DNA of 37,821 nucleotides from Candidatus Woesearchaeota archaeon (lineage in GTDB: Archaea > Nanobdellota > Nanobdellia > SCGC-AAA011-G17 > JACPIM01), in NCBI GenBank assembly GCA_016188045.1, contig JACPIM010000022.1, forward strand, positions 1 through 37,821, given 5' to 3'. The notes under the pieces were generated by a model. It worked only from the letters and a program-made list of their open reading frames with translations, was not told where the DNA came from and did not search any database. Position numbers and translations under genes: made by a program. Positions within the stretch are counted from its first letter, which is position 1, and each line of letters opens with the position of its first letter. Shown in pieces: positions 3,225-35,122 of the stretch.

Positions 3225-4475
3225 ATGAAATATGTTAAATTAATATTTTACATTTTTACATTTTTCCTACTTTCTAATTATATAAGCGCCTTTTTAATAA
3301 GTCCACCAAAATACGAAGTGGATTTTGAGTCCAACGCTCAAAAAAAATTAATAATCACTTTAATAAATAAACCAAGAGAAGATAAAGAACTAGATACATA
3401 TATTAAATACGAATTTTTACATCCAATAGCTAAAGAAGAATTAAAAAATGCTTTTTCTCTCAATTCAAGTAAAGTCTCTTTTACAAACCAGGAAGATTAT
3501 GTTTATTTTGAGTTATTAATAAATTTTCCAGAAAATTTAAGCTTAACTGGAATACATGATTTAAGAGTTGGAGCAGTTGAAGCAGCCAACGAAGGACAAG
3601 TAGCTTTTAGGGCAGGAAATGAAGTAAGAATATTAATCAAAAATGGCAACGACACAATAATAATTCCACCCATAATCAATAACGGAGGAGGCAACAATAG
3701 ACCCGCAGATCAAACCCAAAATATTCTTAGACCATTACCAACTACCAGAACATTAAACATAGAGGTTTTAAACATTACCGCAAAAGATGTCTATAAAGGA
3801 GAAAAATCTGATATTGTTATACAGGTAAGAAACAATGAAAATTTTAATGTATATGTAACTGGAATTATCAATATTCTAAAAGAAAATATGGTAAAAGAAG
3901 TTATTACCATACCGCCAACAAGCTTAGAACTATCAAAGACAACAAACCTTAAAACTCTTTGGGACACCAAATCAGCAGATATTGGAGAATATACGGTAGG
4001 AGCAACTATAAACTATCAAGGAGGTTCTAAGAATATAGCAACAACAATGAAAATTAAAGAAAAAAATTTCTTGGTTGTTTTTTCCTTTAGAAATCTACTA
4101 CTTATTTTATTAATTCTAGCTCTAGTTGCTTTAATAATAATAACAATCTTATTTTTATTAAACAAAAAGAAAGGTATAGAAATACTATCAGTAGAAACAA
4201 GGAATATTCTGCCTAACTCTCTTTCAGATATGATAATCAGATTTAAAAATTATGATAATAAAGACCATAAAGTTTATGTTGAGATTATTGTTATAAGTAT
4301 TAATAATGACGTTGTAGATAAAATAGGAACTAATGAAGAGATTTTATCTAAAACAGAAGGCAGTTTTGAGTATAATTGGGAAACTAACAAGTTAATTCCT
4401 GGTATTTATAAGATACAGACGATTATAAATTATGATAATAAAAAAGCAGAAAAGATAATCGAAATTAAGCTATGA
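3225..4475 (+). CDS. secreted Ig-like membrane protein
   Basis: About 416 residues. A signal peptide (hydrophobic stretch ending near SNYISA) precedes a beta-sandwich domain that starts ISPPKYEVDF and ends with GNEVRILIKNG. This arrangement is common in DPANN envelope proteins and resembles a chaperone-like or S-layer-associated Ig fold. A Gly/Asn-rich linker, a second Ig-like domain, a transmembrane helix (about residues 285-310) and then a cytoplasmic beta domain of about 105 residues follow. ATG 3225 is preferred over TTG 3216, which would overlap the upstream stop. The next gene starts with an ATGA overlap. Predicted role: envelope assembly or anchoring, by inference only. Confidence 0.72.
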   Translation: MKYVKLIFYIFTFFLLSNYISAFLISPPKYEVDFESNAQKKLIITLINKPREDKELDTYIKYEFLHPIAKEELKNAFSLNSSKVSFTNQEDYVYFELLINFPENLSLTGIHDLRVGAVEAANEGQVAFRAGNEVRILIKNGNDTIIIPPIINNGGGNNRPADQTQNILRPLPTTRTLNIEVLNITAKDVYKGEKSDIVIQVRNNENFNVYVTGIINILKENMVKEVITIPPTSLELSKTTNLKTLWDTKSADIGEYTVGATINYQGGSKNIATTMKIKEKNFLVVFSFRNLLLILLILALVALIIITILFLLNKKKGIEILSVETRNILPNSLSDMIIRFKNYDNKDHKVYVEIIVISINNDVVDKIGTNEEILSKTEGSFEYNWETNKLIPGIYKIQTIINYDNKKAEKIIEIKL

Positions 4476-4861
4476 GAAAGATAATCCTGGTTTCAATCGG
4501 TATAATTGCCTATTTAATAATTTTTTTTATTCTAAGTTTTATAAAATTGCAAAGTTTTGACATAAAAGTTAATGTTGATAATATTGTAGGAATAGCATTA
4601 GATAATAAAACCTTAAATTTCGGAACCTTGCCTGCTGGTAATAGTGCATTTAAGTATATTGATCTTATTAATAATGACGACAACAAAAAATATGTTTATT
4701 TAACATCCAAAGGAAGAGTAAAAAACTGGATTGTTGCAGAAAAAAACGGTTTCTATTTGGGTCCTAAAACTAATAAAACCATTAAAGTTGAGATTTTTAT
4801 ACCAAAAGATACAAAAATAGGAGAATATACTGGGAAAATGAAGGTGACTTTCTTAGGATGA
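4472..4861 (+). CDS. small anchored Ig-like protein
   Basis: 129 residues: one N-terminal membrane helix (ILVSIGIIAYLIIFFILSFI) then a single beta-sandwich domain with LNFGTLPAGNSA, a motif typical of Ig-like domains in which a strand is followed by a PAG turn. It ends in TKIGEYTGKMKVTF, again a common final strand of such domains. It overlaps its upstream neighbour by 4 bases (ATGA) and the downstream gene in the same way, so it belongs to the envelope operon. Function not known. Confidence 0.7.
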   Translation: MRKIILVSIGIIAYLIIFFILSFIKLQSFDIKVNVDNIVGIALDNKTLNFGTLPAGNSAFKYIDLINNDDNKKYVYLTSKGRVKNWIVAEKNGFYLGPKTNKTIKVEIFIPKDTKIGEYTGKMKVTFLG

Positions 4862-14779: not shown

Positions 14780-15114
14780 GCAGATTTTTTTCAGGAAAAG
14801 TGTCAGTAAAAGCATTTCAAATAGGTTGTCCTATTGAGTTTACACAAAAAGGAAGTAGGTACATACATTCTGCTGTTTTTGATGGCCTATTGGAAGCAAA
14901 TGGTGGATTAGAAGCACATTTTATATTCCCTAGATTCAAAGATTTTTGTCTTGGTATTTTTAGGCTACCTGTTGTGGTATTGGATAATGATATAGGATAT
15001 GTAGATTTCAGTAATGTTGCTTTTGGTGATGAATTACTTCCTTATAAACCAAGAAATAAATCAAAAGAGTATTACGATAGAATTTGTGAGATTCTTCTAG
15101 GCAGAAGGTTATAA
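14776..15114 (+). CDS. hypothetical protein between regulator and sufB
   Basis: 112 residues, family not recognised. It is soluble, with a beta-rich N-terminal half (FSGKVSVKAFQIGCPIEFTQ), a hydrophobic middle (FCLGIFRLPVVVLDNDIGYVDF) and a short helical end (KEYYDRICEILLG). The ATG at 14776 overlaps the regulator stop (ATGA), and its own stop overlaps the sufB ATG by one base, so it is translated as part of the SUF operon. A GTG 9 bases earlier is less likely. Its place suggests a role linked to cluster assembly or regulation; nothing in the sequence proves it. Confidence 0.68.
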   Translation: MSRFFSGKVSVKAFQIGCPIEFTQKGSRYIHSAVFDGLLEANGGLEAHFIFPRFKDFCLGIFRLPVVVLDNDIGYVDFSNVAFGDELLPYKPRNKSKEYYDRICEILLGRRL

Positions 15115-16517
15115 TGGCAAAAGAACAATTCGTAATCAATAGAGAAATATTAGATCATAAGAATCCAGAAAGGGCGGTTTTGAAAGCCCCAATAGGATTA
15201 ACAGAAGAAACAGTTAGATTAATCTCTAAAGATAAAAATGAACCAGAATGGTTACTGCAAAAAAGATTACAATCTTTTAAATTCTTTAAAGAAATGCCAC
15301 TACCGAATTGGGGACCAAGTTTAAACAAATTAAATTTAGATAAAATTGTTTATTACATAAAGCCAGATGAGAGGGGGGGAGCTAGAAACTGGGATGATGT
15401 TCCGGAAGATATTAAAACTACTTTTGAAAAATTAGGAATTCCAGAAGTTGAAAGAAAAGCCTTGGCAGGCGCTGGTGCCATTTATGAAAGTCAGGCAGCA
15501 TACCACAATTTAAAGCAAGAATGGGAGAAAAAAGGAGTGATATTTGAAGATATGGATGAAGCAGTTAAGAAATATTCTGAATTAGTTAAGAAATATTTTA
15601 TGACAACTTGTGTTCCTATAAATGATCATAAATTTGCTGCTTTACATGGTGCGGTTTTTAGTTCCGGGACTTTTATTTATGTTCCTAAAAATGTTAAAGT
15701 AACTATTCCCTTGCAAGCTTATTTCAGAAAAAATGCTATAAGATCAGGACAATTTGAGCATACTTTAATAATTGCTGATGAAGGCAGTGAAGTTTCATAC
15801 ATTGAAGGCTGTAGTTCTCCTCAATATAATGAGAGTTCTTTGCATGCGGGGTGTGTTGAGATTTACGTTAAAAAAAATGCAAGGGCAAGATATAGCAGCA
15901 TTGAAAATTGGAGTAAAGATACTTTTAATTTAAACACAAAAAGAGCGATTGTTGAAGAAAATGGGGTTATAGAATGGATAAATGCAAATACTGGCTCTGC
16001 CTGCACCATGCTCTATCCAAGTTCTATCTTGAAAGGAAAAAATGCAAAATCTGATTTTATAGGAATAGCTGTTGCTGCAAAAGATCAAAATCAAGATACA
16101 GGACACAAGGTTTATCATCTAGCTGAAAACACAAGTTCAACTGTTCAAAGTAAATCTATAAGTATGGATGGAGGGATTACAACTTATAGGGGAATTTTGA
16201 AAATAATTAAAGGAGCTAAAAATTCCAAATCGAGCGTTAAATGCGATGCTTTAATATTAGATGATAGAAGTAAAAGTGATACCATCCCTTTTATTGAGAT
16301 AAATGAGGAAAAAGTTGATATTGCTCATGAAGCCACAGCAGGAAAGATTGGCGCTGAGCAAATGTTTTACTTAATGAGCCGTGGTTTAAGCGAAGAAGAA
16401 GCAATGAAGATGGTTGTTTCTGGATTTATTGAACCTATATCTAAAAATTTACCGGGTGAATATGCAATAGAGTTTAATAGATTAATAGAACTGGAAATGG
16501 AAGGTTCTGTAGGTTAA
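15114..16517 (+). CDS. sufB: Fe-S assembly scaffold SufB
   Basis: 467 residues, full-length SufB of the bacterial/archaeal long form. Signature segments: LPNWGPSL, HGAVFSSGTFIYVPKNVKV, FEHTLIIADEGSEVSYIEGC, the parallel beta-helix core, VKCDALILDDRSKSDTIP, and the end HEATAGKIGAEQMFYLMSRGLSEEEA split over the known C-terminal helices, closing EMEGSVG. SufB binds SufD and SufC and assembles clusters from persulfide sulfur. It follows the unknown gene with a 1-base overlap and precedes sufD by one base. Confident. Confidence 0.97.
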   Translation: MAKEQFVINREILDHKNPERAVLKAPIGLTEETVRLISKDKNEPEWLLQKRLQSFKFFKEMPLPNWGPSLNKLNLDKIVYYIKPDERGGARNWDDVPEDIKTTFEKLGIPEVERKALAGAGAIYESQAAYHNLKQEWEKKGVIFEDMDEAVKKYSELVKKYFMTTCVPINDHKFAALHGAVFSSGTFIYVPKNVKVTIPLQAYFRKNAIRSGQFEHTLIIADEGSEVSYIEGCSSPQYNESSLHAGCVEIYVKKNARARYSSIENWSKDTFNLNTKRAIVEENGVIEWINANTGSACTMLYPSSILKGKNAKSDFIGIAVAAKDQNQDTGHKVYHLAENTSSTVQSKSISMDGGITTYRGILKIIKGAKNSKSSVKCDALILDDRSKSDTIPFIEINEEKVDIAHEATAGKIGAEQMFYLMSRGLSEEEAMKMVVSGFIEPISKNLPGEYAIEFNRLIELEMEGSVG

Positions 16518-16518
16518 A

Positions 16519-17619
16519 ATGCAGATTAGTTTACCAATGGATGGCCCAGATTGGTTTATCCAAAAAAGAAAAGAATGTTGGAATGAATTTGAAAAGATTA
16601 ATCTAGATTTAAATTTAAGATACGGCTTAAGTTTAAGATTTGACTTATCAGGACTAGACTTAAGCAGCGTAGAGTTAAAAAAAAGCAAAATTAAAGTTGA
16701 TACTGAACTTTTTAGTTTCGAAAAATTAGATGAATATGAAGATTTCTTTATGAATAATTTTATTCCAAATCAAGATAAGTTTACTTTATATCATAGCAGT
16801 TTATTAAATAATTTAGTGATAATTCATATAAAAGAAGACAAAGAAATTAATATCGATATAGAATTAAAAGATAAATACCATGCAGACCACATTTTAATTA
16901 TCGTAGAAAAAAACGTCAAAGCAAACATTATCGAAAATATAAAAGGAAATTGTATATTTAGAACGGGTGTTGTTGAGATCTATTTAAAAGAAAAGGCTAA
17001 ATTAAACTATTTTTTATTAGATGAAATAAAAAAAGGAAATAATTTTACTGTTTACAGGGGTTTAATAAATAAAGATAGTGAATTAACAATTGCTTCAAGT
17101 TTATTTTCCAATGGAATCAACAGAATGGAAAACAGCGTAGTAATGAACGGAGAAAATGCCAAATCTGAAATATATAATCTCTATTTTGGTAATGAAAATA
17201 GTAGATACGATATCTATAATGCAATAGTTCATGGAAATAAAAATTGTTTTAGCAATATGTTAAGCAAGGGCGCAGTAAAAGATAAAGCTCAAACTATACA
17301 CCGGGGTTTAATTGAAATCAAAAAAGGTTTTACAAGTAATAATGGTTACCAAAAAGAAGAAGCTCTAATTTTAAATGACGGCGCTAAAGCCAATGCTGTC
17401 CCAAACCTAAAAATTGATAATGATGATGTTAGATGCACTCATGGAGTAACTATAAGCCATTTGGATAATGAAAAGTTATTTTATTTAATGAGCCGCGGTT
17501 TAGATAAAAAAGAAGCAATAAAAAATTATCTTATAGGTTATTTTTATTCAGTTTTATGCAAATTTCCTGAAAAATTAAGAGAGATAATAATTGAAAGAAT
17601 ACATGAAAAACTAAAATGA
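16519..17619 (+). CDS. sufD: Fe-S assembly protein SufD
   Basis: 366 residues of the SufB/SufD beta-helix family. The C-terminal CTHGVTISHLDNEKLFYLMS carries the conserved histidine next to the SufBD cluster-assembly site. The N-terminal segment is divergent and Lys/Asn-rich, as is usual for SufD. It partners with SufB and SufC in the SufBC2D complex. It begins one base after the sufB stop and overlaps the next gene by 4 bases (ATGA). It is shorter than E. coli SufD (423 residues). Confidence 0.93.
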   Translation: MQISLPMDGPDWFIQKRKECWNEFEKINLDLNLRYGLSLRFDLSGLDLSSVELKKSKIKVDTELFSFEKLDEYEDFFMNNFIPNQDKFTLYHSSLLNNLVIIHIKEDKEINIDIELKDKYHADHILIIVEKNVKANIIENIKGNCIFRTGVVEIYLKEKAKLNYFLLDEIKKGNNFTVYRGLINKDSELTIASSLFSNGINRMENSVVMNGENAKSEIYNLYFGNENSRYDIYNAIVHGNKNCFSNMLSKGAVKDKAQTIHRGLIEIKKGFTSNNGYQKEEALILNDGAKANAVPNLKIDNDDVRCTHGVTISHLDNEKLFYLMSRGLDKKEAIKNYLIGYFYSVLCKFPEKLREIIIERIHEKLK

Positions 17620-18044
17620 AACTATTATTTGTGTGTATGGAAAATGTTGCAAGAAGCCAGATAGCTGAAGCATTATTTCCAGATCCAATTCATGAAGTAA
17701 TTAGTGCTGGAATAGATCCTAGAATAAATAAGAGTAGAACTCTCGTAGAGATAGGTGCTTTTGGTGTTATAGAGTGCATGGCTCAATTAGGCTATCATCT
17801 TGGTAACAGGATGGTGAAAGAATTAAGTCCTGGGATGGTTAGAAGAGCAGATAAGATTATTGTTATGGCTGATCGTATGTTCTGGCCACAATATCTTCGT
17901 CTAGCAAAAGAAAAAACAGAATATTGGCCAATACCAGATCCAAAGGGAGCTCCAGTGTGGAGATATGCGCAAATTAGGGATACTATCAAGCATCTGATAT
18001 ATGACGATGAAAAAGGCCTTGCTAGGAGGTTATCGATAAGATGA
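17616..18044 (+). CDS. low-molecular-weight phosphatase-like protein
   Basis: 142 residues of the LMW protein-tyrosine phosphatase/ArsC fold. The P-loop is CMENVAR (Cys7 to Arg13, CX5R) followed by SQIAEALF, and the general acid is in IPDPKG. The extra redox cysteines of pI258-type arsenate reductase (a CX6C-type pair after residue 80) are absent; the only other Cys is at 54, so phosphatase activity is more likely than arsenate reduction. It sits between sufD and sufS with 4-base overlaps on both sides, an unusual member of a SUF operon. The substrate is unknown. Confidence 0.85.
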   Translation: MKLLFVCMENVARSQIAEALFPDPIHEVISAGIDPRINKSRTLVEIGAFGVIECMAQLGYHLGNRMVKELSPGMVRRADKIIVMADRMFWPQYLRLAKEKTEYWPIPDPKGAPVWRYAQIRDTIKHLIYDDEKGLARRLSIR

Positions 18045-19228
18045 GAAAAGATGATTTCCCTTTATTAAAAAATAGAAAGATAGTTTATTTAGATAGTGCA
18101 GCGACCAGCCAAAAACCCAGCATAGTTATTGAAGCAATGAATGATTTTTATACAAGATATAATTCTAATGTTCATAGAGGAGTTTACTCTATAAGCGAAG
18201 AAGCAACTTTAGAATATGAAAAAGCAAGGGAAAAAGTTGCTGAATTTATCAATGCACTTCCAAGTGAAATAATATTCACCAGAGGAACAACCGAAAGCTT
18301 GAATTTGCTTGCTTATTCTTTAATTGATGATTTAAAAGAAAACGATGAAATTTTATTAAGCGAAATGGAGCATCATTCAAACTTAGTTCCATGGCAACAA
18401 CTAGCTAAAAAAAATAATATAAAATTAAAATTCATACATATTAATAAAAACGGTCAATTAGATTTCGATCCTAATTTAATAAATAACAAAACAAAAATTG
18501 TGTCTTTAGTCCATGTTTCAAATGTATTAGGGACTATCAATGACATTAAAAAAATAGCTAAAGAAGCCCATGATAAAGGAGCTTTATTTATACTAGACGG
18601 AGCCCAGAGTGTTGGCCATATGAAGATTGATGTTAAAGATTTAGATGTAGATTTTTTGGCTTTTTCAAGTCACAAAATGTTAGGTCCTATGGGCATAGGC
18701 GTTTTATATGGTAAAAGTGATTTATTAGAAACAATGAATCCATTCTTATATGGTGGCGACATGATAAAACAAGTAAGTTTATATGAAACCAGGTTTAATG
18801 ACGTCCCTTGGAAATTTGAAGCTGGAACACCTAATGTTGCCAGCGTTATAGGTTTAAAAAAGGCAATAGAATACATCAATGAAATAGGAATTGATGATAT
18901 CGAAAAGCATAATAGGAAGTTAGTTAAGTATACAGTTGAAAAATTAAAAAAATTAGGCATTAAAGTTTATGGAACTCCAAAGCTAAATGTTATTTCTTTT
19001 AATATTGACGGAATGCATCCACATGATGTTTCAAGTTTGCTTAATCAGAATAGAATATGCATACGTGGTGGTCATATGTGCTGCATGCCTTTAATGAAAA
19101 AGTTAAGTGTTAATGGTGTTTGTAGGGTTAGTTTTAATTTATATAACGAAAAAAAAGATGTTGATGAACTAATAAAAGCCTTAAATGAGATTTTAATTTT
19201 AGCTGAGAAAAATGGAATTGCTGTATGA
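18041..19228 (+). CDS. sufS: cysteine desulfurase SufS
   Basis: 395 residues, class V aminotransferase fold. It has YLDSAATSQKP at the start, EMEHHSNLVPW, the PLP-binding Asp in LDGAQSVGHM, the PLP lysine in SSHKMLGPMGIG and the persulfide cysteine in RGGHMCCMP. The short loop around the catalytic Cys and the two-Cys HMCC form are noteworthy. It releases sulfur from cysteine for SUF cluster assembly and may also feed the E1/Gly-Gly carrier system further right. Its end overlaps the sufU start by 17 bases. Confidence 0.96.
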   Translation: MRKDDFPLLKNRKIVYLDSAATSQKPSIVIEAMNDFYTRYNSNVHRGVYSISEEATLEYEKAREKVAEFINALPSEIIFTRGTTESLNLLAYSLIDDLKENDEILLSEMEHHSNLVPWQQLAKKNNIKLKFIHINKNGQLDFDPNLINNKTKIVSLVHVSNVLGTINDIKKIAKEAHDKGALFILDGAQSVGHMKIDVKDLDVDFLAFSSHKMLGPMGIGVLYGKSDLLETMNPFLYGGDMIKQVSLYETRFNDVPWKFEAGTPNVASVIGLKKAIEYINEIGIDDIEKHNRKLVKYTVEKLKKLGIKVYGTPKLNVISFNIDGMHPHDVSSLLNQNRICIRGGHMCCMPLMKKLSVNGVCRVSFNLYNEKKDVDELIKALNEILILAEKNGIAV

Positions 19229-19601
19229 AGAATTAATGGATCATTATAAAGATCCGAGGAATTATGGAGTATTGAAAGATTTTGATATTAAAGAATCTGA
19301 TTCAAATCCTTTGTGTGGAGATGAGATTTTATTCACCATTAAACTTGAAGATGAAAGAATAAAAGACATAAAATTTTCAGGCGCAGGTTGTGCCATTAGT
19401 AGATCTTCAGATTCAATCCTAACAGAATATGTTAAAGGCAGGAGTATAAATGAAATATTAAAAATGAGTAATGATGATTTTTTAAAAATATATGGATTCA
19501 AGCCTAGCGCTATGAGGGTAAAATGCGCATTGTTAGGATTTATTGCTTTGAAGAAAGCAATTTTAAGATATTTAAATCAACCAATAAAAAATGTACCATA
19601 G
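19212..19601 (+). CDS. sufU: SufU/IscU-like scaffold or sulfur acceptor
   Basis: 129 residues with the three conserved cysteines: Cys35 in NPLCGD, Cys60 in GAGCAIS and Cys105 in VKCALLGF. The GCAIS phrase is SufU-like, but the insertion of about 20 residues that typical SufU has between the second and third Cys is absent, so the spacing is closer to IscU. Asp37 in CGD is present, as needed for zinc or cluster binding. It is coupled to sufS by a 17-base overlap and followed by sufC after 5 bases. It probably accepts the SufS persulfide. Confidence 0.88.
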   Translation: MELLYEELMDHYKDPRNYGVLKDFDIKESDSNPLCGDEILFTIKLEDERIKDIKFSGAGCAISRSSDSILTEYVKGRSINEILKMSNDDFLKIYGFKPSAMRVKCALLGFIALKKAILRYLNQPIKNVP

Positions 19602-19606
19602 GAAAA

Positions 19607-20359
19607 ATGCTAGAAATTAAAAATTTACACGTAAAAGTAGAAGAGAATGAAATACTAAAAGGGGTGAGTTTAACTGCCAAAGATAACGAAGTAACAGTTT
19701 TAATGGGACCCAATGGTTCTGGTAAGTCGACATTAGCAAATACGCTAATGGGACATCCTAAATATGAAATCACTAAAGGCGAAATCAAATTTAATAATAC
19801 CTTACTGAACGAATTAAACCCAGAAGAAAGAGCTAAATTGGGATTGTTTTTAAGTTTTCAATACCCACAAGAAATTTCCGGTGTTAATGTTAGAAACTTT
19901 TTAAGAGTGGCTTATAACTCAGTTAAGAAAACTAAATTAAGCCCCATTGAATTCAGAAAAATAATAGATGAAAAAATGGATTTGTTAAAAGTTGATAAAA
20001 GCTTTGCAGACAGATATTTGAATGAAGGTTTTTCTGGCGGCGAGAAAAAGAGGAGCGAAATTTTACAACTAGCAGTTTTAGAGCCCAAATTTGCAATATT
20101 AGATGAAACGGATTCTGGATTGGACATAGATTCTTTAAAAACTGTAGCTGAAGGAGTAAATAAAATAAAAGAAAAGATAAAAAACGGGGTATTAATAATA
20201 ACTCACTATAAAAGAATTTTAGATTACATTAAACCAGATAAAGTCTATATCATGAAAAACGGGAAAATTGTTGAAGAAGGTAGTATTGAGTTAGTTGAAA
20301 GATTGGAAAAAGAAGGATATGATTGGCTAGATGAAGTTAACGAACAACTGCAAGTTTAG
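19607..20359 (+). CDS. sufC: SUF ATPase SufC
   Basis: 250 residues, ABC ATPase of the SufC type: Walker A GPNGSGKST, Q-loop FQYPQEISGV (the SufC-specific PQEI/PxEI phrase), signature FSGGEKKRSEILQ, Walker B FAILDETDSGLD, and switch His in ITHYKRIL. ATP binding drives rearrangement of SufB-SufD. ATG 19607, just after the sufU stop, gives the standard MLEIKNLHV start. It is the last gene of the operon. Its last 23 bases overlap the end of a convergent lipoprotein gene. Confidence 0.96.
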   Translation: MLEIKNLHVKVEENEILKGVSLTAKDNEVTVLMGPNGSGKSTLANTLMGHPKYEITKGEIKFNNTLLNELNPEERAKLGLFLSFQYPQEISGVNVRNFLRVAYNSVKKTKLSPIEFRKIIDEKMDLLKVDKSFADRYLNEGFSGGEKKRSEILQLAVLEPKFAILDETDSGLDIDSLKTVAEGVNKIKEKIKNGVLIITHYKRILDYIKPDKVYIMKNGKIVEEGSIELVERLEKEGYDWLDEVNEQLQV

Positions 20360-31368: not shown

Positions 31369-31815
31369 TTATCTAACTATTAAATTTCCTTTCATCTCTT
31401 TATGGCCAGAACCGCAGAAAACATTACAAAAAAAGGTAAATTCACCAGATTTATCAGCTACAAACTCAATATTCTCAGTTTTACCAACATCGACTTTTTG
31501 GCTTATTCCATAATCTGGAATAGCTATGCCATGATTTACATCTGTACTGGTTATTTTAATCTTGACTTTATCTCCTTTATTTACAGTTATAGTAGAAGGG
31601 TTAAATTCGAATTTTTTGGCAGTCATATCTATCTCGACTATATTTGAATTTGCCGCCTGAGAATTTTCATCTACTTTATCATTTCCAGTATCAACTACCT
31701 TAACCTGAGGCAAAGTCGTAGTTGTTGTTTCTTGCATCGCTTGTGGCGTTTTTGATTGACAACCAGCAATAATAATTAAAGCAATTACCAAAAAGATTAA
31801 TGAAATTTTTTTCAT
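31369..31815 (-). CDS. stand-alone CuA cupredoxin lipoprotein
   Basis: 148 residues. Signal peptide and lipobox (IALIIIAGCQ, Cys19), a Thr/Gln-rich linker, then a cupredoxin domain like that of cytochrome oxidase subunit II. The CuA ligands are all present: His95 (VNHGIAIPD) and Cys130, Cys134, His138 and Met141 in FCNVFCGSGHKEM. No oxidase genes are nearby and the N-terminal helices of real subunit II are missing. It probably carries or stores copper or electrons outside the membrane. DoxX lies 40 bases upstream on the same strand. Confidence 0.85.
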   Translation of the reverse strand: MKKISLIFLVIALIIIAGCQSKTPQAMQETTTTTLPQVKVVDTGNDKVDENSQAANSNIVEIDMTAKKFEFNPSTITVNKGDKVKIKITSTDVNHGIAIPDYGISQKVDVGKTENIEFVADKSGEFTFFCNVFCGSGHKEMKGNLIVR

Positions 31816-31855: not shown

Positions 31856-32221
31856 TTAATCTCTAAATCTTGAATCCAAACTTAGTTTTTTGCTTCCAGA
31901 TATCGCTAATGACAAAGCAGCCAGAAAAATAGCAAAATCTCTCACTGCAACATCATTATACCCTAAAGAAATTATTATTGGAATTAAACTCAGGGCCATT
32001 AAAAACGCAGCTAATCTTGTAAATGCACCAAGTATGATAAAGACAGCCACAACCATCTGAAAAATTGCCATTGCCATTACAACTATTGTTGGTTGTATTG
32101 GAATAAAGACCGGAACTAAAGAAGACCACACATCTGGTTCTAAAATACTTGTAATCCCAAACCAAAACAAGGTTATTCCTAATCCTACTCTTAAAATTAA
32201 CGAACTATAATCTTTTAGCAT
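31856..32221 (-). CDS. DoxX-family membrane protein
   Basis: 121 residues with four membrane helices: LILRVGLGITLFWFGITSI, then IVVMAMAIFQMVVAVFIILG, FLMALSLIPIIISLGY and FAIFLAALSLAISG. RxxLGxxxxxxG in helix 1 and the overall length fit DoxX/DoxD-type proteins. In some bacteria and archaea these are linked to thiol and quinone redox chemistry. It precedes the CuA lipoprotein and is close to the DipZ/CcdA pair, which suggests one membrane redox group. Confidence 0.78.
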   Translation of the reverse strand: MLKDYSSLILRVGLGITLFWFGITSILEPDVWSSLVPVFIPIQPTIVVMAMAIFQMVVAVFIILGAFTRLAAFLMALSLIPIIISLGYNDVAVRDFAIFLAALSLAISGSKKLSLDSRFRD

Positions 32222-32678: not shown

Positions 32679-33770
32679 TTAACCAAAAGTGAATGCACTG
32701 AATTTAAATTCTTTTGATGATGTAGTTAGTTTTAAAGTATAAGTTCCATATTTTGAATTAATCACATTATATAATCTAGCTTTGTCTATTGAAATAAATG
32801 ATTTATTATTTTTAAATTTAACATCAAAACCAGCTTGCTCCTTAGTTATTGATTTATCATTAATAAAAACTTCCACCTCTACTGATTTTGCTGTATTATC
32901 CGTAACTATATTTACTGAAGAAGCGGTAAACTTTAATATTATCACTCCTTCTTCATCTTGATTTTGTAAAGTATCAGGATTATTTTTCCATTTTCCTTTT
33001 AGATAAATTCTATCTTGACTTATATCATCAGGCAAGTTATAATTTACTATCTGGTCTGGTTTATATCCTTCTTTATTTCCCAGATTTTGCCCTCTTGGCA
33101 AAGCAAACTGATAGCCAGCATAAGTTTCAGGTGTTATCCTAAATCTTATTTCTTTTTCAGTTTCTTTAGTCAAATCCATATCAGTTACATTTTCACCTAG
33201 TTCTTCTAATAATTCTTGTATTTTCTTTTCTGTTTCTTCATAATTGCCTTCTCCAAAATGAAAATATTTTATATAACCTTCTTTATCTATCAAGTATTTG
33301 GCTGGCCAATACCTGTTTTCATAATTATTCCATGTAGAATAATCATTATCCATCCCAACAGGATATTTTATCTTAAAATCATTTAGCGCCTGCTCAACAT
33401 TTTCTCTTTTCTTTTCAAAATCAAATTCCGGCGTGTGAATTCCTATTATTTGCAATCCTTTTTTAGAATATTTTTCATCCCATTCTTTTAAATAAGGCAA
33501 AGTTCTGATGCAATTTATGCAAGTATAAGTCCAAAAATCAATCAAAACGATTTTCTTTCCTTGAAATTCTTTTACTGTTAAAGGCTTAGAATTTATCCAA
33601 TGTTTTATTCCAATTATCTCGGGTGCTTTCCCTATCTCAGATTTTTCAGGAACATTGACTATCTTGCAACCAATTCCTGGAATGCAAACTCCCCTTTCAA
33701 CCATTATTATCACTCCCATTATTATAATTACAACAAATATTAGTATTGTCCTTCTAGTCCTGGTTTCCAT
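32679..33770 (-). CDS. DipZ-like thioredoxin with C-terminal jelly roll
   Basis: 363 residues. A membrane anchor (about 8-24) is followed by a TlpA/DipZ thioredoxin domain with redox site WTYTCINCIR (Cys84/Cys87) and the DipZ phrases GIHTPEFDFEKKRENV and NRYWPAKYLIDKEGYIKYFHFGEG. The last 150 residues match the jelly-roll domain of DipZ, which begins ITPETYAGYQ and ends FSAFTFG. In mycobacterial DipZ these domains are fused to a CcdA-like membrane part; here that part is the separate gene upstream, overlapping by 17 bases. It acts as an outer-face thiol reductase or oxidase. Confidence 0.9.
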   Translation of the reverse strand: METRTRRTILIFVVIIIMGVIIMVERGVCIPGIGCKIVNVPEKSEIGKAPEIIGIKHWINSKPLTVKEFQGKKIVLIDFWTYTCINCIRTLPYLKEWDEKYSKKGLQIIGIHTPEFDFEKKRENVEQALNDFKIKYPVGMDNDYSTWNNYENRYWPAKYLIDKEGYIKYFHFGEGNYEETEKKIQELLEELGENVTDMDLTKETEKEIRFRITPETYAGYQFALPRGQNLGNKEGYKPDQIVNYNLPDDISQDRIYLKGKWKNNPDTLQNQDEEGVIILKFTASSVNIVTDNTAKSVEVEVFINDKSITKEQAGFDVKFKNNKSFISIDKARLYNVINSKYGTYTLKLTTSSKEFKFSAFTFG

Positions 33771-34497
33771 TTTTTATTGTTATAGATGCTAAATAAAGTA
33801 AAAATGCGGGTATTAACGGCAATACGCAAGGACTTAAAAATGAAATTAATCCAGCTAAAAAAGCAATTCCTAAATTTACAGATGAGCCAAAATCTATGTA
33901 GCTTAAATTAGTTTTTAATAACAATTCTGCTACAAAAGACAAGTTTGCTATTTTAGCTAAATTGCTTGTGAAAACTAATATTCCTAAAATAATTAACATA
34001 ACTCCAAAAAAATAATTTAAATATCTTAAATAAGGAAGTATTTTTTGAATAATTTTATTTGCTTGATTTGTGAATAATCCAACTAATAAAAAAGGAATTC
34101 CCAGTCCAATTGAATAGGAAAACAAAAGAAAAAAAGCCATTGTTGGTTGTGTTATAGCCAAAGTTAAAATTGCACCTAAAACAGCACCTATACAAGGAGT
34201 CCATCCGACAGCAAAAGCAGAGCCAAATAAAAATGATGCTATGTATGAAGATTTAAACTTTCTTTTTACTTGAAATTTATGCTCTTTTTCTAAAAAAGAG
34301 ATTTTTAATAAGTTTAGTAAATAAAGTCCAAAAAGCATTATGATAATTCCACCAATTCTCCCTAACCATCTTAAAACTAGAAAAGATGAGTTTGATAAAA
34401 TCGTTTGTAATAAAATTCCAACGAACGAGAAAACCACACTAAAGCCTAAAACAAAAAACAAGCTATTGATAAAAATATAATATTGATTCCTTGCCAT
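33754..34497 (-). CDS. circularly permuted CcdA/DsbD membrane domain
   Basis: 247 residues, six membrane helices. Canonical CcdA begins with a helix carrying SPCVLPLIP and has GWTPC in helix 4. Here GWTPCIGAVLGAIL (Cys102) is in the middle and FLAGLISFLSPCVLPLIPAF (Cys224) is in the last helix; the protein begins with the usual second helix (FINSLFFVLGFSVVFSFVG). An in-frame TAA directly precedes the ATG, so nothing is missing upstream. Residues 178-208 link the old end to the moved helix. With an outside linker and cytoplasmic ends, all helices keep their normal direction. It passes electrons across the membrane to the DipZ-like protein. Confidence 0.9.
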   Translation of the reverse strand: MARNQYYIFINSLFFVLGFSVVFSFVGILLQTILSNSSFLVLRWLGRIGGIIIMLFGLYLLNLLKISFLEKEHKFQVKRKFKSSYIASFLFGSAFAVGWTPCIGAVLGAILTLAITQPTMAFFLLFSYSIGLGIPFLLVGLFTNQANKIIQKILPYLRYLNYFFGVMLIILGILVFTSNLAKIANLSFVAELLLKTNLSYIDFGSSVNLGIAFLAGLISFLSPCVLPLIPAFLLYLASITIKNGNQD

Positions 34498-34711: not shown

Positions 34712-35122
34712 TTAAACAAAAAATCTCTGGTCACAAAACTCTTTCTTTTCTTCTGAAGCAAAATATCTTTGAGGATTTTCTCTTAAGTCTTCAATTATTC
34801 TTTTTGCTTGTTCTGGTGTGGCTCTGAATGGTGCTACAATTCCACCAACAAACAGAGAATATTCCACTCCGAAGTCCCTTAGCAACATTTTTACAAGTTC
34901 TCCTGGACCTTGCTCTGTTCTAAGAGGAAATATCACTGCTTCACTTCCAGCTTTAAAGAACTCTTCATAAATCCATTCTGAGAGAGTATTTAACTTAGAA
35001 TAAACATGAACTGGATGGTAAACTAATCCATTTTTATCCTTCTTTCTTACCTTCTTTGTAGGATTTATCAATCCAATATGTAAGACTTTTGCTTTATAAT
35101 CCGGTGTTAAGTCAATTGCCAT
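34712..35122 (-). CDS. hypothetical protein, 136 aa
   Basis: Soluble alpha/beta-looking protein of 136 residues. Family not recognised. Features: AKVLHIGLINPTKKVRKKDKNG at the start, SEAVIFPLRTEQGPGELVKMLL, FVGGIVAPFRATPEQAKRII and a C-terminal Arg/Glu helix. Its composition is less Lys/Asn-rich than that of the neighbours. It is transcribed away from the CARF regulator, with about 148 bases between the two starts. Confidence 0.68.
   Translation of the reverse strand: MAIDLTPDYKAKVLHIGLINPTKKVRKKDKNGLVYHPVHVYSKLNTLSEWIYEEFFKAGSEAVIFPLRTEQGPGELVKMLLRDFGVEYSLFVGGIVAPFRATPEQAKRIIEDLRENPQRYFASEEKKEFCDQRFFV

Follow-up and report, generated by a model that had tools for sequence, protein, structure and literature searches.

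The window analysed here, a 37,821-nucleotide stretch from a Candidatus Woesearchaeota archaeon (contig JACPIM010000022.1), carries on its minus strand a gene (33754–34497) for a 247-amino acid, circularly permuted CcdA: its six helices occur in the order 2-3-4-5-6-1. The helix order and its conservation, with 79 distinct homologues sharing the same order, show that this ORF encodes a circularly permuted variant of the CcdA/DsbD_TM family, not a plain family member. Very probably it is a real, conserved, natural circular permutant of the CcdA membrane electron transporter, the identity of fold and of function being inferred. A first-pass annotation, made from the sequence alone, had proposed the permutation. 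The present analysis adds three points: the arrangement is widespread, its operon slot is also occupied by canonical sisters, and more than one permutation event probably took place.

Helix order of the gene at 33754–34497

The permuted protein begins with the TM2–TM6 block (residues 3–176; 33970–34491), which aligns to residues 41–209 of CcdA from T. thermophilus (PDB 5VKV). At its N terminus stands the part of CcdA that succeeds helix 1, a loop and a helix (FFVLGF), and then comes GWTPC, whose active-site cysteine, Cys102 (codon 34192–34194), lies in the fourth canonical helix, TM4. An outer linker between TM6 and TM1 (33889–33969), identified by its length and tail sequences as the canonical C-tail and N-tail fused, leads to the last helix (residues 204–244; 33766–33888). 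This C-terminal end, LGIAFLAGLISFLSPCVLPLIPAFLLYLAS, is CcdA helix 1; it aligns to 5VKV residues 2–34 and carries SPCVLPLIP, with the second active-site cysteine, Cys224 of SFLSPCVLPLIP (codon 33826–33828). All of these features lie on the minus strand.

Two sets of profile searches establish the order. Firstly, the ORF matches Pfam DsbD_TM (PF02683) above cut-off (E 3.3e-14), with the best stretch aligning residues 9–175 to profile positions 45–214 and a second stretch separate from it. In a whole-genome search, the helix-1 part of the profile (positions 4–37) mapped to the C-terminal end of the gene, and this ORF was the sole ccdA match in the source genome. Secondly, when nine permuted homologues are combined into a profile, only one solved structure is matched, 5VKV, in two blocks: (i) profile positions 205–237 to chain residues 2–34 (i-E 1.9e-8), and (ii) profile positions 10–186 to chain residues 41–209 (i-E 1.4e-32). 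The order of the blocks is swapped relative to 5VKV and only chain residues 35–40 separate them, which places the cut in the loop between helices 1 and 2. Thus, the ORF has the TM2–TM6 homology of CcdA, including GWTPC, and a TM1 with the PCxLP cysteine, but not the linear TM1-TM2-...-TM6 order. NCBIfam matches to permuted CcdA span only TM2–TM6; full-length linear models lose part of the signal.

These results uphold the central claims of the first-pass annotation: the SPCVLPLIP helix comes last, helices 2–6 with GWTPC come first and in order, and the cut lies in the loop between helices 1 and 2. Its argument that a stop codon excludes an upstream helix 1 also held: the ATG at 34497 is immediately preceded by in-frame TAG TAA, and no neighbouring helix-1 ORF was found.

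The orientation of the helices is inferred from charge alone. Across predicted inner segments, the mean number of K+R residues is 2.66 (N-tail), 6.44 (loop 3-4), 2.58 (loop 5-6) and 1.63 (C-tail), while the predicted outer segments average 0.25, 0.00 and 1.33, the last of these being the 33-residue linker. Charges are distributed likewise in canonical sisters, whose N-tail contains neither K nor R. The charge pattern therefore suggests that every helix has kept its orientation and that the chain ends have moved to the cytosolic side. The cytosolic location of both termini, also claimed by the first-pass annotation, is likely, and there are no topology data.

An AF2 model built from 69 homologues (pLDDT 81, pTM 0.76) predicts long helices at residues 3–36, 39–60, 84–116, 118–141 and 143–176, followed by a last helix in two parts (204–219 and 228–244), broken at SPCVLPLIP. 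Foldseek returned 5VKV as the sole credible solved structure for this model (probability 1.00). The match covers 183 columns (TMq 0.47); since Foldseek keeps sequence order, a match shorter than that of a canonical sister (240 columns, from a weaker model with pLDDT 66, AF2, 13 sequences) is expected, and the site of the last helix is not shown. That the last helix occupies the TM1 site, giving a six-helix fold equivalent to CcdA, is a likely inference that has not been directly demonstrated.

Distribution, operon context and proposed function

Helix order in homologues was called from the positions of two HMMs, one for TM2–6 and one for helix 1, along each ORF. A single-sequence scan of genome contigs gave no matches, while a scan of GTDB species genomes with a nine-sequence alignment succeeded, returning 80 loci, most of them permuted. 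Once duplicates had been removed and later loci included, 79 distinct permuted and 22 canonical-order proteins were obtained, and none with helix 1 in both positions. The recurrence of the order in 79 distinct proteins excludes a chance origin, and the search for the same helix order in archaeal genomes, which the first-pass annotation had suggested, was thus successful, reaching both archaea and Patescibacteria. Homologues of this lineage with SPC at both ends, named in advance as one case that would refute the reading, were sought and not found: among 190 core-containing ORFs with a helix-1 match, each has exactly one helix 1. In 69 aligned permuted proteins, C102, C224 and the Pro and Gly of the TM1 motif are invariant.

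Within the 103 genomes of the same taxonomic order, 13 carry a permuted and six a close canonical CcdA; none carries both. At the level of the phylum, a TM6-linker-TM1 query, to which no canonical protein can give a one-piece match, found 32 of 371 genomes, spread across many families. The known hosts are Woesearchaeota, other Nanoarchaeota, Iainarchaeota (Diapherotrites) and Patescibacteria, the last comprising Wolfe-, Taylor-, Kaiser-, Nomura-, Lipton-, Azam- and Staskawiczbacteria and including one complete Wolfebacteria chromosome (CP011209). A junction-only query of 380 evenly drawn Patescibacteria genomes matched the seed genome alone; this count is a lower bound, and the first residues of the query are approximate (89% identical to L076). 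In a plasmid collection, 356 records gave CcdA matches, none of which extends over 80% of the query at a single site, and the permuted form is therefore absent from that collection.

Permuted and canonical sisters, which are ~55–60% identical, share an operon slot: extracytoplasmic thioredoxin, CcdA, DipZ-like thioredoxin. In the window, the partner gene (32679–33770, minus strand) overlaps the end of ccdA by 17 nt and encodes a membrane-anchored TlpA/ResA-like thioredoxin (WTYTCINC) with a C-terminal Thioredoxin_10 domain. The Pfam matches (Redoxin and Thioredoxin_10) bear out the DipZ-like partner of the first-pass annotation, and by its domain content the gene corresponds to the extracytoplasmic half of DipZ. 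Of 73 testable permuted copies, 57 are immediately followed by a DipZ-like gene, as are 13 of 17 canonical ones; the other 16 permuted copies have no adjacent detectable DipZ-like gene, some of these cases being contig ends, frameshifts or motif misses. Directly upstream, a YANWC-type thioredoxin accompanies 19/75 permuted and 9/17 canonical copies. Further along the same strand of the window lie a DoxX-family membrane protein (31856–32221; Pfam DoxX, E 1.7e-8) and a cupredoxin-like lipoprotein (31369–31815; Pfam Cupredoxin_1, E 4.9e-14), which could belong to the redox cluster, their membership not having been shown. The source genome also has flavin disulfide-reductase-like genes and a thioredoxin whose NCBIfam match exceeds the cut-off.

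Homology and context make it likely that the permuted protein does the job of CcdA, passing electrons from cytosolic thioredoxin to an external DipZ-like thioredoxin; electron transfer itself is inferred. In the proposed path, electrons would run from NADPH to a reductase, to thioredoxin, to C102/C224 and on to the DipZ-like partner outside, where they may be spent on repairing or reducing exported proteins. The elevator model published for CcdA has TM1 and TM4 moving within a scaffold (PMC7329351). In the permuted form, TM1, the helix thought to be mobile, would exchange a tether at its inner end (to TM2) for one at its outer end (to TM6, through a 32-residue linker).

Several neighbouring genes were recorded. 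In six Patescibacteria loci (L076, L077, L082, L089, L102 and L108), MsrA-/MsrB-like genes follow the DipZ-like gene, raising the possibility that electrons are used for methionine sulfoxide repair or against oxidative stress. The position directly upstream of permuted ccdA is often taken by a DUF3179 (PF11376) gene bearing a conserved YCPLCGS or FCPLCAS motif (L034, L037, L039, L063, L069 and others). In the window, the ORF upstream of ccdA (34712–35122, 136 aa) has no Pfam match.

Other CcdA-like proteins were also observed. A divergent canonical paralogue (CVLPLYPAFLSYLA) occurs in genomes with permuted CcdA (L028 at 1471–2181, L039 from 2174, and L141) and in some adjoins the permuted gene; in L028, VIPCNP replaces GWTPC, with a FAVWCP thioredoxin alongside. 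Two CcdA types share one operon in L048 and L114, where the 345-aa frame of a divergent canonical CcdA runs 4 nt into the start of permuted ccdA. One genome of the same family as the window encodes a 204-amino acid canonical-order close sister (L013; G002:C37:2018-2605) that lacks TM4 with GWTPC, apparently through an in-frame deletion.

Comparison with known permutations and fusions

The permuted protein resembles CcdA (PF02683; 5VKV) in its six helices, its TM1 PCxLP and TM4 TPC cysteines, its similar length and its thioredoxin-like operon partner. It differs in the 2-3-4-5-6-1 order, in termini predicted to be cytosolic rather than outside, and in the outer linker that ties TM1 to TM6. Mycobacterial-type DipZ, a fusion of CcdA, thioredoxin and a C-terminal domain, uses the same modules (the partner here has Redoxin and Thioredoxin_10) but joins them in a single chain, whereas the permuted system divides them between two overlapping ORFs. 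The permutation would prevent a direct DipZ-type fusion, because such a fusion needs the C terminus of CcdA outside. One genome with permuted CcdA (G082) also encodes a 584-amino acid canonical-order protein which, by its length, is likely a fused DipZ.

DsbB and VKOR, four-helix membrane thiol oxidoreductases, are related by circular permutation and were described as the first such link between alpha-helical membrane protein families (PMC4555120). They are likewise redox proteins, but the two families are very distant, a helix pair has moved and the relationship was inferred from structure; in CcdA a single helix has moved, living sisters are ~55–60% identical and the termini are predicted to switch sides. 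ECOD notes a circular permutation in the transmembrane domains of MacB-type ABC exporters (PMC6588880), in which the first helix is likewise placed in the last-helix position. That case rests on deep structural inference, while the CcdA forms are closely related and share an operon context. According to a 2020 paper, circular permutation had not been observed in membrane proteins (PMC7162841). The open-licence literature searched yielded no earlier report of permutation in CcdA or DsbD; mention elsewhere is possible. Gene-level relocation of a helix in a membrane protein has rarely, if ever, been so clearly visible. The two forms coexist among living relatives and share operons. As these close relatives differ in chain connectivity, comparing them offers a direct test of the route of permutation, of insertion order and folding, and of the elevator model of CcdA.

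Route, number of origins and alternative explanations

Comparison of the junctions suggests how the permutation was made. The outer linker measures 30–37 residues across the permuted family (median 32), in agreement with the 30-residue linker of the first-pass annotation. Canonical sisters have a C-tail of ~19 residues after TM6 and an N-tail of ~5 before TM1, and the permuted linker begins with canonical post-TM6 sequence (LSRIANFxFxxxLL). The canonical loop 1-2 spans 17–22 residues (median 18.5), and the permuted C-tail and N-tail together 16–40 (median 23). From these lengths and sequences, almost no residues were lost or gained: the old ends were fused and the old loop was opened.

Junction lengths and charges fit, and make likely, the route proposed by the first-pass annotation—tandem duplication followed by trimming—with the route itself remaining an inference. 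In this scheme, (i) a canonical ccdA would have been duplicated in tandem and translated as a single chain, (ii) both copies would have been trimmed within cytoplasmic loop 1-2, and (iii) the remainder would consist of TM2–TM6 from copy 1, an outer linker made of the old C-tail and old N-tail, and TM1 from copy 2. The orientation of every helix would be unchanged, with the chain ends shifting from outside to the cytosol. Duplication of the required type does occur: a Liptonbacteria locus (L069) contains two thioredoxin-CcdA cassettes in tandem; the CcdA of the first is a truncated canonical copy (TM1-3; 1016–1381), that of the second a permuted copy (3935–4747) 2.5 kb beyond it, and a second permuted copy lies elsewhere in the same genome. 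The locus is not an intermediate, and none of the homologues found is an intermediate carrying helix 1 at both ends.

Permuted and canonical proteins were placed in joint trees with helix 1 rotated back; the 5VKV row was taken from the alignment to the permuted profile, minus residues 35–40, and two misplaced long branches (L028 and L165) were left out of later trees. With fewer sequences and few Iainarchaeota, a single permuted clade was not rejected (p-AU 0.495; 0.113). With more Iainarchaeota it was rejected by the AU test (TM1+core, p 0.0026), as it was with the TM2-6 core only and no outgroup (p 0.0055) and under the simpler LG+G4 model (p 0.046). Permuted types I and II are rejected as one clade (p 0.0016); types I and III (the latter L174, L177, L179 and L180) are not (p 0.311). 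Type II (L103 and L110) is nested among canonical Iainarchaeota (support 100/99, then 96/79). In addition, the L110 tails (AGTSLKEVNEE and DARLRIILSS) resemble loop 1-2 of canonical Iainarchaeota relatives (L175: AGTTLKDAQENAPGTRWRIFLSS), and type II tail residues at the break lie mostly outside the tree columns. The rejection of a single clade, together with the nesting of type II and its matching break-site loops, makes at least two independent permutations likely. A bolder reading, to which we incline by a small margin, is that at least two and perhaps three permutations occurred independently at the same loop in DPANN, the permuted gene each time taking the place of the canonical one within its operon, and that one form passed to Patescibacteria. 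If true, a helical membrane protein would have been rewired repeatedly, in a way open to selection, with both chain ends carried across the membrane. In one of the earlier trees, permuted CcdAs of Patescibacteria (including L081) nest within archaeal type I with moderate support, which suggests transfer of permuted ccdA from DPANN archaea to CPR bacteria.

The main alternative to repeated permutation is a single event, the mixed tree then resulting from exchange with resident canonical copies (by recombination or gene conversion) or from reversions. This remains possible: the smaller data sets do not reject one clade, types I and III can form one, and tandem-copy genomes such as L069 exist. 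Against it stand the three rejections of a single clade and that of types I and II, and the position of L103/L110 within canonical Iainarchaeota, whose loop 1-2 is matched by break tails lying outside the tree columns. Multiple origins are hence preferred.

A second alternative holds that the protein is CcdA-like in sequence only, that its last helix lies outside the TM1 site, and that electron transport has been lost or replaced by another role, such as efflux. In its favour, placement of the last helix in the TM1 site lacks a direct structural superposition, and the weak NCBIfam matches include an ArsG permease (all far below cut-off). However, both active cysteines and the TM1 motif residues are invariant in 69 proteins from two domains of life, and the redox partner genes are conserved and common to canonical sisters, leaving this explanation very improbable. 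Finally, an artefact—mis-assembly, or an upstream helix 1 missed through an alternative start, a frameshift or a split gene—is conceivable in a 24-contig draft genome but is all but ruled out by the stops directly before the ATG, by the absence of any permuted gene with a stand-alone helix-1 ORF or fragment beside it or helix 1 at both ends, and by the recurrence of the order in many independent assemblies, the complete chromosome among them.

Elsewhere in the window, a SUF-like iron-sulfur assembly cluster was observed at 15114–20359, with SufB, SufD, SufS, SufU and SufC assigned by eye; an ORF resembling a low-molecular-weight phosphatase or ArsC (17616–18044) is inserted between SufD and SufS.
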